From the NCBI GenBank assembly GCA_001599595.1, contig BCHH01000009.1:1277774-1341773 (forward strand): a stretch of DNA of 64,000 bases, written 5' to 3'. This DNA comes from Beverwykella pulmonaria (Eukaryota; Ascomycota; Dothideomycetes; Pleosporales; Melanommataceae). Under the pieces are notes generated by a model. The model had not been told where the DNA came from. It ran no database searches and saw only the letters and a program-made list of their open reading frames with translations. The translations under genes and the position numbers were made by a program. Each line of letters begins with the position of its first letter. The first letter of the stretch is position 1. Below are positions 33,641 through 39,531 of the stretch, piece after piece.

Positions 33641-33778
33641 TGAAGAATCTTTCTAGCCAGCTCTATATTACTGTCACGAGAGGCTATCTGGAGTGATGAA
33701 CAAAGGTCAATTGACTATCAAACTACAAATACAATCTCAGGTGCGATAGATTATCATACAAGACGTTGCGTAAGGAGC
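33641..33778. repeat. Left remainder of a Fot1-type element, split by the 5.5 kb transposon
   Basis: Its reverse complement matches 13691-13805 (TACGCAACGTCTTGTATG, then CTCTAGTGACA-like sequence). Together with 39279-39531 it forms one copy in the opposite orientation to the copy at 13395-14203, once the 5.5 kb insertion is discounted. Confidence 0.7.
33771..33778. repeat. Left 8-bp target-site duplication (TAAGGAGC)
   Basis: TAAGGAGC occurs here and again at 39279-39286, just outside the inverted repeats. The uninterrupted relative at 13691-13698 carries a single near-match (GCTCTTTA, opposite strand). Confidence 0.85.
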
Positions 33779-33782
33779 GTGC

Positions 33783-33824
33783 AGGCAGCTCACCCGATAC
33801 TGGTTTTTGACCTCGGCGCATACT
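33783..33824 (+). repeat. Left terminal inverted repeat, 42 bp
   Basis: Starts AGGCAGCTCACCCGATACTG and continues through TTTTTGACCTCGGC. The reverse complement of 39232-39273 matches with three transition differences. Confidence 0.9.
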
Positions 33825-33962
33825 ACAATCTAGGGTTAGCGCCGGCCGAATGTGGCGGCTTGGCACACTAAAAGCTTGGCGCGTAATTTTAAACGAACGC
33901 GTTGCGAACATGTTCACTACGCGTTCACAACACGTTCGACTATATCAACAACAACTACAACA
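33825..33962 (+). promoter_or_regulatory. Upstream region of gene A with GAACNNGTTC motifs
   Basis: At 33894-33940 four adjacent motif copies occur, for example GAACGCGTTGCGAACATGTTC and CAACACGTTCG, directly before the gene A start. The same motif fills the element's introns. Confidence 0.6.
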
Positions 33963-34854
33963 ATGCCTGCCCGCTTGAACAACTTCGTAAGTCGTTTTGA
34001 ACATGTTCTGCGAACCTATTGTGAACGTGTTGCTAACACGTTCAGATTCCGTACTTGCGCTACAAGCGCCTTGAGACTGTCCCTCTTGGTATGGGCGCTT
34101 TTGAGCGCACCCAAGCCAATGAAGTCCTTGTCAATTTCGGCGAGCGCCGCTGCCGCATTGACGTAGGCGGCGAGCTCTGTGGAGTAAGTTAAACCATTCC
34201 CCGACATGTTCGGAAATTGTTCAATGAATTCTTTCTGAACGTGTTGCTGACATGTTCTAGGCTGTCTACCAGTCGCGCGGTGCCTTGTGCACTCACCTAG
34301 AGCGAGCTCATGGCGAGCAAGTTGCTGATGCCGACAACGTCGGCAATCCTGGGGCTGCCTACATCCAGGATATCAAGGGTACGTGGAACATATTTCGAAC
34401 AGGTTTGGAATCTGTTTGGATATTGCGGCCAACACGTTNGGAACACGTTGCTAACACGTTTGTTTAGATTGGTACTGCGCAGTCATGGAGGAGCATGACC
34501 GTCTTGTCGCCGAAGGCGACAACGACGACGACGGCGGCGACAACGACGACAACGACGACGGCGACAACGACGACAACGACGACGACGGCGACGGCGGCGA
34601 CAACGAGGACGAGGGCGACGGCGACGGCGGCGACAACGACGAGGACGAGGGCGANNNNNNNNNNNNNNNNNNNNNNNNNNNNNNNNNNNNNNNNNNNNNG
34701 GCGACGGCGGCGACAACGACGAGGACGAGGGCGAGGGCGACGACGAGGACGAGGACGAGGATGGAGATGACGAGGTGAGTTTGAACAAGTTCACAATCTG
34801 TTTTTAATCTGTTGCTAATTTGTTAAGGAGGAGTGGGAGGGGTTTGATGATTGA
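33963..34854 (+). CDS. Transposon gene A: zinc-finger-like protein with acidic repeat tail
   Basis: Five exons: 33963-33986, 34046-34183, 34261-34378, 34468-34774 (with a 45-N gap at 34655-34699) and 34828-34854. Joined, they give about 205 residues. A possible zinc-binding unit reads RRCRIDVGGELCG then RGALCTHLERAHG (Cys, Cys, His, His), split by an intron after the CG. Then WYCAVMEEHDRLVAEGDND leads into a long Asp/Gly/Asn/Glu repeat encoded by GAC/GGC triplets, and the end is EEWEGFDD. The frame on either side of the N run is off by one, so the gap length is not exact. All four introns (53-89 nt) carry the motif. It resembles gene B in the zinc unit and intron position. A DNA-binding helper or regulator of transposition is a guess. 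Confidence 0.65.
34500..34765 (+). repeat. GAC/GGC trinucleotide repeat coding for acidic residues, with assembly gap
   Basis: Imperfect triplet repeats inside exon 4 of gene A, interrupted by 45 Ns. The sequence on both sides of the gap is nearly the same, so the true copy number is uncertain. Confidence 0.85.
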
Positions 34855-35452
34855 TTAGGTTTTTTTCCTACTTTTTTCTATAAAAAATAAAGTAGATTTT
34901 GTCTTACGCTTTCTAAAGAAGGCAATAAAAAGATTTCTCTTATTAATTTTAATTATAATGTGAATAGGTCTTAATTATGTTTAAACTAACTAGAATTTAA
35001 AAAGGTAACGTGCCTGACATTCACTTTCAATTGAGCAGATAGACAGACCCTTTGCCTTACAGATCCTACAAAGGGATGGGTATTCAGAATNAGATAATAT
35101 CTGCCGGCATTGGTTGAAGTTTGGCTGAACTAGTTAGGAACGTGTTCAAGTTATATTTAATATAACTTACCATGCCCTTTACCTGCCTCCTTGTTTTATT
35201 GCTTGACCTGTACAGAGGAACATCAAAGATGGCTGCAGAGGTTTTATAACACTCCTCTTAGACAGACTCTATAATTTCTTCTTAAATTCTATCCTCCTCT
35301 TCCTCTTAGTTATCCTGAGTAGACTGACCTATTTCCAACTCGTTCGCAACATATTCGTTATGTGTTCTCATAACACTATTATAGTAATCCATCTCATGTC
35401 TTAATTGGCGGATACCTGTCTGGCCTGTCTTGGAGGGTGCAAGAGGATAGTC
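34855..35452. other. Intergenic part of the transposon between genes A and B
   Basis: AT-rich and without a frame. It contains further motif copies, for example GAACGTGTTC near 35137 and CAACATATTCGTTATGTGTTC near 35348. Confidence 0.5.
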
Positions 35453-35782
35453 CTAATGGAAGGACTTAATGTGATGGATTAGGGCGCCTCTCTCTGCAAA
35501 CCAGCGCTAGAACATAATTAGAACATTTTTAAAAAAGCTTTGTTGAGACTGTACCTACACCACACAGATTCTTATCACCTGGGAATAGGAATGCACGACA
35601 GTATAGCTCCCCTGAATGGACAATATACTGTCCATCCTCATTTCTTGAAAGTTCGGATGACCCAATGGGCAGGGCTTGCAGCTGTACGTATTGTGCATAT
35701 GATGGCTTGCCAAACATGTTAGGAATATGTTGCAAACGTGTTCCGCAGTACTTACAGCAGAAAGCAGTGATTTATTCACCAT
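35453..35782 (-). CDS. Transposon gene B: 75-residue zinc-finger-like protein related to gene A
   Basis: Three exons on the minus strand, 35756-35782, 35559-35705 and 35453-35506, joined in frame to 75 residues. The core ELYCRAFLFPGDKNLCG then RWFAERGALIHHIKSFH parallels gene A (RRCRIDVGGELCG then AVYQSRGALCTHLERAH): two Cys, RGAL, and His-x5-His or similar. The intron lies at the same place (after the CG codons, phase 0) in both. Both introns (50 and 52 nt) carry AACATGTT/ATGTTCT motif copies. Too short for an enzyme. A small DNA-binding or regulatory protein is inferred. The gene is easily missed because no single frame exceeds 70 residues. Confidence 0.55.
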
Positions 35783-35908
35783 GTTAAATGTAGGTGGAGA
35801 GAAGGTGAGGAGATTTTTACGGAAACACGAGGCATCTTTTATTACCCCTCATTTATCCCTATAAAGATCTAGCGCGGAAAACTCTGAAACTAGCTTGGCA
35901 ACTAATTA
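35783..35908. other. Intergenic part of the transposon between genes B and C
   Basis: Short spacer upstream of gene B and downstream of gene C. No frame. Confidence 0.4.
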
Positions 35909-38900
35909 TCAACCTGTTCNGAACAGGTNGAGATCACGTTGACGGCGCTGTTCTTCTTTCTCCTGCTCAAAATGAAATCGCGCCTTTTCTAGTTCAAGTT
36001 TTTCCTTTTCTAGCTGAATGCGTGCTTTTTCAACTTCAAGCCTTTGAAGTTCAGTCTGTAGATTTTGGTTTGAGAACATAGCTTGACGTTGGAGTGATTG
36101 TGAATTGCTTGAACACGTTTAGAACTAGTTGCAAAGAGGTTGATATTAACTTACGGCGGCACTGGAGATGAAGGAACTGGCGTTAATCTCCTAGAAGATA
36201 CTGATGGGGATCTTGAAGTAGTTTTACTTCTAGAAGACATACGTCTACCCTGTCTTTGGCTTGATACAAATCNNGAAGAGTTTGATAAAGTTAGAATATN
36301 ATCGTNACTTTCTAGACTTTGTAGAGGCTCTCTCTCTTTTNGTTCTAAACAAGTTAGGAATAGGTTTAATCTATAAGACATATACTTACTTCTTTCTCTT
36401 CCTGAGTTAATAAAGTATCTTTGGCTTAAACTCATAGGCATCNGTGAGGCATGCCGGCTTCCATGTCGATCTCTTGCATTGAACTCTCCAATATCCTGGA
36501 GATCCATTTGCATGGCACTTCAATGTGTTAGCAACATGTTCTGAACCTGTTCAAATACATACTTTGATATAGCCTCAAGTAGAGGCAGTCTCTGACCAGT
36601 ACGATAGCCTTTATTGCCAGCCTGCTCAACAGCATTTGAGTGACATTCTATCTTATCCNATATATCTTTAGGGATTAGACTNATACACTGTACTAAACCA
36701 GCTGCAATGACTAGATGTTTCTTATGTCTTGCCCAGTTCTGGACTCTTTCGTCTTCCTCCTCTAGAAACATGTTAATAATAGCTTCTCAACAGGTTCCAA
36801 ACACGTTGACATACCCATTAACAAATTGCAGAGTTGATTATAGTCCGCACTTGACTTCATAGACAAGAGAGCTCTCATACGCCCCCAGATAGACTCTGGA
36901 ACATGTGGTGAGTTTGGAACAGCTTTTGTTATACTGCGTAGAAAATGGACTTGGCAGAACCGTACACAAGACTGTAGCTGCCATCTCCACTCTCTCATAT
37001 CTGGATCTACCTGGGCAAGGTATTCACCAAAGCCTTTAACATGTTATTCAGAACTTGTTTAGAACAAGTTAAACTACATACCTCGCATCTGCTTGCTGTC
37101 CATATCAACAGTAATGCCATAAAACCCCTCTTTGTGTAAGTGATGCNATTTTACTGGCTTATTTGTACGTTCACCACAGAGTTTAAAAAAGTGGTATAGG
37201 CCTTGTTGATAGATTCTTGGCGATTCCATATCAGTAATAATGCGTCCAAGCGTAATTACTTTTAATATCTTAGCAACTTGTTTTTAACCTTCTTAAAATA
37301 GTATATACTTTTACCATGTCCTGGGTGGAAGATTGCAATAAGAACCTCAGACCATCCTTGTTCAAGTCTTTTGTATGACATATCCATCTGGAATGTAGTC
37401 TGGGAGAGAAGAATCTGGGCTTGCTGATCATATAAACAGATAATAAAGTTTCCCGAAACTGAAGTAATAATGTGACGAATGTATGCCTAACATGTTATGA
37501 ACACGTTCAGAATGTATTCAGGTTCTTATAACTTACTGTTGCAGGATCCTGATGCTTTGTTCGCCACTCATACACTACACCACCTATCCCATGTTTATAT
37601 GGAAACTGAGCTAGCTTTTCACGTTTAATTATCCGTCNAATTCGATCCTTATTTGCATATACTGCATTGAAATTATCCAAGGATGAGAAGCCTTTTAATT
37701 GGAGATATGCATGGAGCTGAGGGGATTTTAGAAAATCCGCTGAATAGGTTAGCATCATGTTGAGAACAAGTTCAGCAGTTCTTACATCGTGTAAGCCTTA
37801 GTGTTAGCATTGGATGCAGAATGCTATGGATCTCCTCTAGCTCGTCTGCTGGTATATTCCAGGGCGGAGGTGGGATATGCGAATGTGTTCCGAACGAAAT
37901 TAGAACAAAATAAGGTGTTCTAACNATATCCTCTGGAATTAGGATATGGAATTCAACATCGCAAGCATGTTTAATCATCTTTCCTTGGCCTTGCGGGTGG
38001 TCCACACCTTGAACACGTTAGGAACAAGTTCAGAATCGCTTCTCAAATACATACCGCACGTCTTAAGCCTGCAGGCTTGAGGCTCTACAACATTACAGTA
38101 CTCATTAACAGTTGGCAACCCAAATTCAAATAACCTTTCAAGGTAAGGAATGTTGGCCTTTTCATCAACCTTTTGGATATAGTGCCTTTCAGCTGTTCTT
38201 CGTTGCCAATGCCAGCTATTGCATCCAACAAACCATGTGTCAGTGTTCGAGAGTTCCTAAAAGCTTGTTAAATTGATTTGAACACGTTTTGAACACGTTG
38301 AATACCTGTCTTGTTTTTCTCAAGCGCGGTGTACATGTAGGAAGTTGTGGAGTACAACAACCTAATGCAAACCTCCGCTGGGCACTAAGAAAGACAGCTG
38401 TAGCTATAGCCTCTCCCTGGTCCTTCTGTGAAACAGCCCGCAGTTGTTTAATCTGCTCATAAAGAGCATCCGTAACCTCATTATGTGAACACGTTCGCAA
38501 TACGTTCTCAAGGTATTCACAATGTTTAATTCCAGAACACCGATACTTCCACTTGTAGGTACTTCCGTTAAGGAATGGCGAATGTGTAAGTTTTTCAGGA
38601 TATACCTTCGCCCTTGAGTACTGAAACTAACGAACGTGTTAGGAACATATTATCAACCTGTTCAGGTACTTACTCTTAGTGCTTTCTTCAACACATCCTC
38701 TTTATTAGGATATACACCAGAGGGGAGTTCAGCTACTTCTACTATATAAGCTATACCCTGATTGTGGGTTTTTGGATATGCTGGTATAAACGGTGTGTAT
38801 ACTGTTTCCTCTACTATAAGAGGTCCACTGTTGTTGCTATTTGAACTACCAACTGTAAAGGGAGTCTGGTGCTTTGCGAACGTGTTAGGAACATGTTTAG

Positions 38901-39079
38901 AACATATTGAGATTTTGTCTAGGATTGGTTACAAATTCAGTTCCTTCTCTGTCTGCATCCTCATCTAGTTCTTCTTCAGACAAAAACATGTCCCCAAGAG
39001 AGAAGATTGAGTCATTTTCATACTCCTCTTCGTTGTTGTGAATAGGGTTGTATATAATTTGACCAGGTGGCGTTGTCAT
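35909..39079 (-). CDS. Transposon gene C: 858-residue DDE/RNase H-fold transposase with 13 exons
   Basis: Thirteen minus-strand exons: 38933-39079, 38674-38871, 38306-38626, 38055-38256, 37786-38007, 37537-37739, 37315-37486, 37082-37258, 36815-37033, 36563-36761, 36390-36517, 36155-36344 and 35909-36107. They join to 2577 nt with no internal stop. Order: acidic N-terminus; a cysteine-rich zinc-binding stretch (YRCSGIKHCE near 140, GCNSWHWQRR, CRLKTC); HSHIPPPPWNIP near 340; catalytic candidates Asp466 in QMDMSYKRL and Asp540 in GITVDMDSKQ; and a CxxH motif at 574-577 (RFCQVHF), as in Mutator-like, hAT and related transposases. Then comes WARHKKHLVIAAGL, a Ser/Arg-rich stretch and a C-terminal Glu/Lys/Gln coiled coil. 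The third acidic residue is not assigned. The twelve introns (45-61 nt) hold GAACNNGTTC-type motifs. The start is the Met at 39079. Confidence 0.82.
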
Positions 39080-39231
39080 GTTGTGAACACGTTGAGAACC
39101 TGTTGGAGAAATGTACTGCAAGAATTTTTTTTTTCTATTTTAAGGTAGGCTGTGCTTAGTTATATACCTGAACTGATACTGGAAAAATTTTCACTTCCTA
39201 ATTCAGTAAGGCGGCCTTGGCAGCAGGGGGC

Positions 39232-39273
39232 AGTATGTGCCGAGGTCAAAAACCAGTATCAGGTGAACTGCCT
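39232..39273 (-). repeat. Right terminal inverted repeat, 42 bp
   Basis: Inverse of 33783-33824 with three transition differences. Confidence 0.9.
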
Positions 39274-39278
39274 CCTGG

Positions 39279-39531
39279 TAAGGAGCTCAACCAGTGGTCC
39301 TTCGCGTTCCATAAGTACCCGGTCTGGTTCGTGCGTCAGGGGTCTAGTTCGTGCGCGGGCCGAGCCCAATTCGGTTAAGCATTCTAGGTTAGGTCGGCTA
39401 GATGTCGAACTCGTCGTTCGGAGAGTGCTGTGTTGTAGAGTACAGTACTTATCGGGACCGTCGTTCAGGACCATCGTTCGGAGGGTACTGTATTCTACAG
39501 TGTCACTCCGTGACAATTACTAACTTCTCCT
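39279..39531. repeat. Subterminal repeat block of the Fot1-type family, copy 2
   Basis: Inverse orientation relative to 13395-13640. Shares GTCAC/GCGGAGTGACAC at the outer end (39515-39531) and GAATACAGTACCCTCCGAAC. Its first 8 bases are the right target duplication of the 5.5 kb transposon. The outer end sits in a decayed Tc1-type gene at a TA. Confidence 0.75.

Follow-up and report, generated by a model that had tools for sequence, protein, structure and literature searches.

Introns of a fungal DNA transposon carry phased palindromic arrays, candidate docking sites for an element-encoded protein

In a 64,000-nucleotide stretch of the genome of Beverwykella pulmonaria (the window), we characterized a transposable element whose predicted introns carry arrays of a short palindrome, mostly repeated at 11-bp intervals, and we recovered four further diverged families with homologous transposases from the same genome. 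The element itself probably encodes a sequence-specific protein that docks on these palindromes, serving its mobilisation and/or its protection from silencing; the binding, the identity of the binder and the consequence of binding are what we infer from the observations set out below.

The element (family I) is 5.5 kb long; the genome around it comprises 45.6 Mb in 31 contigs. The coordinates given by the earlier note (33779–39278) proved correct, with TAAGGAGC flanking both ends as an 8-bp target duplication. Contig C13 holds a second near-full copy (99.5% identity over 4187 and 876 bp). C4, C7 and C14 hold three short derivatives, the C13 copy and each of the three derivatives having its own 8-bp duplication. 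Gene models predicted 4 introns in gene A, 3 in gene B and 12 in gene C, i.e. 19 in total, and the splices of the introns of all families were likewise predicted from gene models. The count of 18 (4 + 2 + 12) proposed earlier thus stands for genes A and C, but not for gene B. The latter was read as a single gene, with 4 in-frame stops in the family I copy of the window, and pieces of gene A match the zinc-finger gene of family II. A tRNA scan of the whole window returned no tRNA. The features are listed below, in window positions.

33771..33778, no strand: left target-site duplication, TAAGGAGC
33779..39278, no strand: whole transposable element, family I, delimited by the TAAGGAGC duplication on each side, the 99.5% second copy and the derivatives
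33779..33824, strand +: left terminal inverted repeat, 42-46 bp
33896..33936, no strand: non-intronic array of four units between the left terminal repeat and the gene A start, the third unit with one mismatch
33963..34858, strand +: gene A, C2H2-like zinc-finger protein with an Asp/Gly-rich repeat, 4 introns (gene model)
33987..34045, strand +: gene A intron 1, motif array
34184..34260, strand +: gene A intron 2, motif
34379..34467, strand +: gene A intron 3, motif array
34775..34827, strand +: gene A intron 4, motif array
34990..35782, strand -: gene B, second zinc-finger gene, 3 introns
35125..35170, strand -: gene B intron 3, motif pair
35507..35558, strand -: gene B intron 2, degenerate motif only
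35682..35755, strand -: gene B intron 1, motif array
35909..39079, strand -: gene C, transposase, 858 aa, open, 12 introns (gene model and homologues)
36108..36154, strand -: gene C intron 12, motif pair
36345..36389, strand -: gene C intron 11, motif
36518..36562, strand -: gene C intron 10, motif array
36762..36814, strand -: gene C intron 9, motif array
37034..37081, strand -: gene C intron 8, motif array
37259..37308, strand -: gene C intron 7, motif
37487..37536, strand -: gene C intron 6, motif pair
37740..37785, strand -: gene C intron 5, motif array
38008..38054, strand -: gene C intron 4, motif pair
38257..38305, strand -: gene C intron 3, motif pair
38488..38506, strand -: exonic motif pair (one exact unit, one with a mismatch), codons for LENVLRTCSH
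38627..38673, strand -: gene C intron 2, motif array
38866..38932, strand -: gene C intron 1, motif array
39086..39104, no strand: motif pair directly upstream of the transposase ATG
39232..39277, strand -: right terminal inverted repeat, 42-46 bp
39279..39286, no strand: right target-site duplication, TAAGGAGC

The motif AACNNGTT is strongly concentrated in the element, with 44 exact copies, compared with 9 for the remaining 58.5 kb of the window. These copies are distributed between introns (36), other non-coding DNA (5) and exons (3), corresponding to 34.5, 7.8 and 0.79 exact cores per kb. The exons, described at first as nearly free of the motif, are therefore poor in it, but they do hold three exact cores and the pair at 38488–38506, which recurs at the corresponding codons of families II and III. 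In the pooled introns of families I–III (19 + 19 + 13, i.e. 51), an exact core occurs in 43/51 introns and is absent from 8/51; allowing one mismatch, a core is found in 49/51, and two or more in 39/51. Two sets of introns show less of the motif: those of the family II zinc-finger gene, of which 3/6 have an exact core and 2/6 have none even at one mismatch, and those of family III, of which only 7/13 carry two or more copies. Host introns were represented by 18 kinase loci, which yielded 15 introns after three loci with no visible intron to define were left out. Among these 15, AACNNGTT was found in none and a half-changed form (AACNNATT or AATNNGTT) in one. Genome-wide, the pattern AACNNGTTNNNAACNNGTT occurs 105 times against 6 for its reversed control, and 46 of the 50 sites among the matches listed (of 105) fall in these elements or their derivatives.

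Short and A+T-rich introns could in principle acquire such motifs by chance, base composition or slippage. The 51 introns contain 71 exact cores compared with a mean of 2.0 and a maximum of 7 in 500 dinucleotide shuffles, and 64 of the 78 pairs of neighbouring copies have a spacing of exactly 11 bp, compared with a shuffled mean of 0.17. Together with the host-intron and reversed-pattern controls and with the conservation of the cores in derivatives described below, these values leave that explanation a negligible likelihood. The motif richness reported by the earlier note is thus real, the predicted introns being enriched over both shuffled and host introns as it had proposed to verify, and the possibility that host introns might be equally rich in the motif is contradicted by their 0/15. 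Its spacing of 11–13 bp holds as about one helical turn, the value being mostly exactly 11 bp.

The arrays extend beyond the introns and along the whole element. The copies announced upstream of the gene A start and before the transposase ATG are present (33896..33936 and 39086..39104), and others lie in the convergent gap of family II. At the motif centre a purine-pyrimidine step is preferred, and the copies that precede the last one of an intron are symmetric, with a G before and a C after favoured (GAAC RY GTTC). When motifs, including half-changed forms, were merged within 60 bp, the mean distance between the resulting clusters was 225, 201 and 218 bp in families I, II and III. Their spacing was more even than random (CV 0.31, 0.38 and 0.26 against means of 0.65–0.68; P at most 0.0004), in three tests that are not independent because families I–III share exon lengths, and these common exon lengths may account for part of the evenness.

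Families II to V were recovered by a transposase search and a pattern search of the genome. Family II is represented by five loci in protein matches (C1, C2, C5, C10 and C19), of which three, about 4.9 kb each, were examined in sequence; it has 38-bp terminal inverted repeats, and in its C1 copy the zinc-finger gene has 6 introns and the transposase 13. Family III has one locus (C7) with an open transposase of 13 introns, at which terminal repeats and a zinc-finger gene were sought and none found. The single family IV locus (C1) shows only the start of a zinc-finger gene, and its transposase was modelled only in part, this portion being open. At the single family V locus (C25), the exons contain stops and a zinc-finger gene is present.

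Across these families the letters of the motif vary, while the architecture and intron positions stay. Matches to AACNNGTT in the introns of families I to V number 36 (18/19 introns), 22 (14/19), 13 (11/13), 1 (1/11) and 0 (0/11). In the same order, AATNNATT is found 3, 1, 0, 25 (11/11) and 4 (4/11) times, with 0 in the 15 host introns, and AATGCA(A/T)T or its mirror 0, 0, 0, 4 (4/11) and 6 (6/11) times, with 0 in the host. Mixed forms (AACNNATT or AATNNGTT) number 12, 9, 3, 1 and 3, with 1 in the host. The 45.6 Mb contain the pattern AATRYATTNNNAATRYATT 13 times, 11 in the locus of family IV and 2 in that of family V, against 4 for the reversed control.

C-to-T mutation on both strands would convert AACATGTT to AATATATT, and at least one derivative of this genome (L031) has a composition typical of repeat-induced mutation (RIP), so that the family IV motif AATNNATT might be viewed as a decayed AACNNGTT. 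Family IV, however, has no RIP-like composition (TA/AT 0.88; (CA+TG)/(AC+GT) 1.26), the modelled part of its transposase is open and its 11-bp register is intact. We consider such decay very improbable, chiefly because RIP-like indices are absent.

The introns shared between families are old. Numbered by the columns of one alignment, eight intron positions with their phases are common to the transposases of families I–IV (147/0, 342/1, 423/1, 493/0, which is 494 in IV, 555/1, 616/1, 693/1 and 761/2). A further intron (228/2) is found in families II, III and IV, and another (803–804/1) in I–III, the model of family IV being a partial one. Non-matching introns comprise the first ones, located in the poorly aligned N-terminal part, and one extra intron at position 2 in family III; around columns 265–271 the intron position shifts and the phase differs in family IV. 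Support for the introns comes from the reading frame, the shared phases and an annotated Pleomassaria protein that aligns over the sites without intron sequence. Contigs under 2.9 kb that carry homologues of 740 and 656 aa may be spliced transcripts. The closest named transposase homologues are from Pleomassaria siparia (52% to family II), Plenodomus lindquistii, Melanomma, Lindgomyces and Lentithecium, all of them Pleosporales. In a midpoint-rooted tree of 13 proteins, family II groups with Pleomassaria (100/99), family III with Plenodomus (100/99) and family I with Melanomma, Lentithecium and three others (100/100), whereas family IV falls outside all others except Rhizophagus (97/95). Since these eight positions and phases are common to diverged families, the corresponding introns predate the family split.

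This bears directly on the suggestion that the introns arose by repeated insertion of one short unit, in the manner of introner-like elements. The introns are short and have the motif in common, and excerpts of one study report introner-like elements in Dothideomycetes (PMC4457414). Yet the eight positions and phases coincide (one off by a single column in IV) between transposases of only 31–48% protein identity, and a comparison of the element with itself at E 1e-8 revealed no near-identical intron pair, the only matches being the gene A repeats and the terminal repeats. Fresh insertion of each intron is therefore not supported, and a recent introner-like origin of every intron is barely credible.

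In many introns the final copy of the motif coincides with the branch site. In families I–III, the last exact copy near the acceptor has a T before AAC in 18/21 cases and a C before that in 13/21; in gene A intron 1, for instance, GCT precedes the last unit, forming a branch-site-like GCTAAC. With CTAAC-NN-GTT at the last copy, a single unit can therefore do two jobs, and the change from AAC to AAT between families would leave the branch site usable. Many host introns, examined by eye, have a CTAAC-type site followed by unrelated sequence. The motif might accordingly act in RNA, as an intron-definition or branch-site element repeated so that short introns splice well, and in 11/19, 8/19, 3/13, 8/11 and 1/11 introns of families I to V a motif does begin at the last YTRAY lying no more than 30 nt from the acceptor. 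Several observations make this reading improbable: host introns share the CTAAC-type site in several cases and carry the motif in 0/15, one host spliceosome serves families whose motifs differ, only the last copy is adapted to the branch site, the upstream ones being palindromic, copies also occur outside introns, and cores remain intact in derivatives with deleted or truncated genes. RNA hairpins between neighbouring copies, considered separately, found no support, the centres being complementary in 3/22 pairs (P 0.85 against shuffled).

The derivatives allowed this retention to be quantified. Six non-autonomous or truncated derivatives (three of family I and three of family II, among which L036 is a truncated copy and not a short mobile one) were compared with full elements. 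Within their introns, exact cores were changed at 0/96 positions against 80/633 in the intron remainder (Fisher P 1.1e-5); the 96 positions go back to 11 different sites, some of which enter more than once through related derivatives, and because of this and of the kinship among derivatives the P values of these comparisons are optimistic. Exact cores in all non-coding DNA were changed at 1/162 positions against 61/688 for 179 permuted-letter patterns (P 3e-5), and the other 63 palindromic half-site patterns, when pooled, at 20/263, two better-populated ones being likewise unchanged (0/42 and 0/18). With half-changed copies included, 5/234 positions differed compared with 185/2321 in the remaining non-coding DNA (P 3.6e-4). 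For non-intron cores alone, conservation was not significant (1/66 against 109/1760, P 0.18). The contrast within introns argues that selection acts on the DNA itself, and splicing does not explain the retention of cores where the surrounding gene is deleted or cut.

The idea of binding arrays, first raised from the motif alone, gains support at the sequence level from the 11-bp phasing, the palindromic symmetry, the family-specific motifs and the conserved cores. Phased arrays of palindromes would equally fit a dimeric host transcription or chromatin factor, in which case no element protein would be involved. This alternative is unlikely, as families residing in one nucleus use different motifs and as, among the matches listed, the pair patterns hardly occur outside these elements. 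Under the preferred reading, binding by a protein of the element, the candidates are the transposase, in which Cys/His patterns are conserved, and the accessory zinc-finger protein A or B, which is C2H2-like. The binder may be other than the accessory protein, because no zinc-finger gene was found at family III and only its start at family IV; the transposase accompanies the motif in every family, III included. The 8/51 introns of families I–III that have no exact core, the presence of the motif in only 6/11 introns of family V and the non-significant conservation of non-intron cores speak against the array reading.

In the mechanism we propose, a protein dimer would sit on each AAC-RY-GTT palindrome, and with the 11-bp spacing successive copies would point to nearly the same side of the helix, which could make binding cooperative. 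Arrays recur roughly every 200–225 bp over the length of the element. Introns would be suitable sites for them because they are under little coding constraint and because the AAC or AAT start can be a branch site (CTAAC/CTAAT). The bound protein would let the element recognise the DNA of its own family. Arrays near the ends, which are kept in short derivatives, most likely aid mobilisation, and those in the body most likely keep the element open for expression or shield it from silencing, as VANC does in Arabidopsis. A more far-reaching version, which we hold at somewhat less than an even chance, is that the introns have been retained as protein-binding modules, each combining a branch site with a family-specific operator, that an element-encoded zinc-finger protein coats the entire element from arrays spaced by about 200 bp and that motif and protein switch together when families diverge, as an independently evolved fungal counterpart of the VANC self-recognition system of plants. 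If true, introns of a mobile element would gain a DNA-level job, which would explain why the transposase keeps 12–13 of them. It would also be a second case of sequence-specific self-recognition by a transposon, in fungi, whose silencing differs from that of plants. Because one nucleus houses five families and three motif classes, how a protein changes jointly with its many target sites would be directly testable.

Profile searches gave little guidance on the nature of the proteins. No Pfam match better than E 0.03 was obtained for ten ORF pieces of the element, for family III or for the homologues P0001–P0009. The family II accessory protein has a weak zf-C2H2 match (E 7.5e-5, below the Pfam curated cut-off) and no homologue at E 0.01 in the protein database. 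A sequence search of the PDB gave nothing convincing for the transposase or the zinc-finger protein, and none of 80 pattern matches in viral contigs was confirmed as a relative. In the transposase, a C...GxHxHPPP stretch may be WRKY-GCM1-like, by pattern match and not by profile match. The DDE transposases of Mutator-like elements (MULEs) have a CxxH between the second D and the E. In the transposases of families I, II and III, the D-D distance is about 76–77, the D-E distance about 126–130 and the CxxH is present; it is altered in the homologues P0001 and P0003. Duplications of 8 bp flank the element and its C13 copy as well as three derivatives and three copies of family II (9 in two of these sites if a shared end base is counted), and MULE duplications range from 8 to 11 bp according to excerpts of PMC6446971. 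In the same excerpts, MULEs, including the yeast Mutyl with its MutB DNA-binding ORF, likewise combine a DDE-type transposase, 8-bp duplication, terminal repeats and an extra zinc-finger ORF (PMC6446971). The present families differ from them by 12–13 transposase introns, by internal motif arrays and by a transposase that gives no significant Pfam match.

Ac and En/Spm carry subterminal repeats of short motifs bound by their own transposase or accessory protein. Here, by contrast, the arrays span the whole length and lie mainly in introns. Introner-like elements of fungi also consist of short introns sharing sequence, in Dothideomycetes, as far as excerpts of the sources indicate (PMC4457414, PMC9860276); in the present element most intron positions are common to four diverged families and the shared part is a palindrome. 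Titles and abstract openings among the matches listed describe no phased motif arrays in introns of fungal transposons, plant VANC apart. The nearest resemblance is with VANDAL21 and VANDAL6 and their VANC proteins in Arabidopsis, which are also multi-gene elements with short non-coding or intronic motifs differing by family, and whose motifs and proteins evolve together, according to excerpts of PMC5735166 and PMC10398659. The former excerpts also report that VANDAL motifs form repeats, with related families using different ones, and that the ChIP signal of VANC peaks in introns and in intergenic and terminal non-coding parts (PMC5735166). Compared with VANDALs, the present element is fungal, has terminal inverted repeats and C2H2-like accessory proteins, and its palindrome is mostly 11-bp phased, present in most introns and doubles as a branch site. 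To our knowledge, VANDALs have no terminal inverted repeats. VANC, by analogy with which an anti-silencing role is suggested here, is the closest working analogue of this system, through a resemblance in mode of action and not through membership.

In the stretches compared, the window copy of the family I element is separated from its second near-full copy on contig C13 by 14 substitutions, all of them transitions, and eight of these cluster in a 94-bp stretch of the zinc-finger gene B (window 34990-35782), which carries in-frame stops in the window copy. This pattern of substitutions, with its cluster in gene B, is RIP-like. In the other zinc-finger gene, gene A, the last part is an extended Asp/Gly-rich repeat (window 34480-34770), interrupted at about 34655-34699 by a run of N beyond which the predicted frame is uncertain.

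Further sequences of interest elsewhere in the genome, in the local coordinates of each locus (contig coordinates for L037), were as follows:

L031 3650-4694, family II derivative
L033 1792-5064, family III transposase, open reading frame, one locus found
L034 2700-4600, remnant in which a gene-B-like zinc-finger gene and the C-terminal part of a transposase persist
L037 (G000:C9:1356000-1359500), transposase-related fragment about 40 kb downstream of the family I element
L035 3776-4620, repeat similar to the next two
L039 1560-2314, repeat of the same group
L040 600-2470, repeat of the same group

The family II derivative is RIP-like in composition (TA/AT 1.51, (CA+TG)/(AC+GT) 0.95) and still keeps motif arrays in an interior part that does not align to family II. 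At its locus, no terminal repeats were detectable around the family III transposase, which is possibly domesticated or end-truncated.

The best piece of the downstream fragment shares 62% identity over 37 residues with the family I transposase, and the 9-kb locus of the zinc-finger-bearing remnant contains 14 exact motif cores. The three mutually similar repeats, 80-94% identical for most pieces and with families I-III absent among the matches listed, each carry the AACNNGTT pair at 11 bp (3/3).
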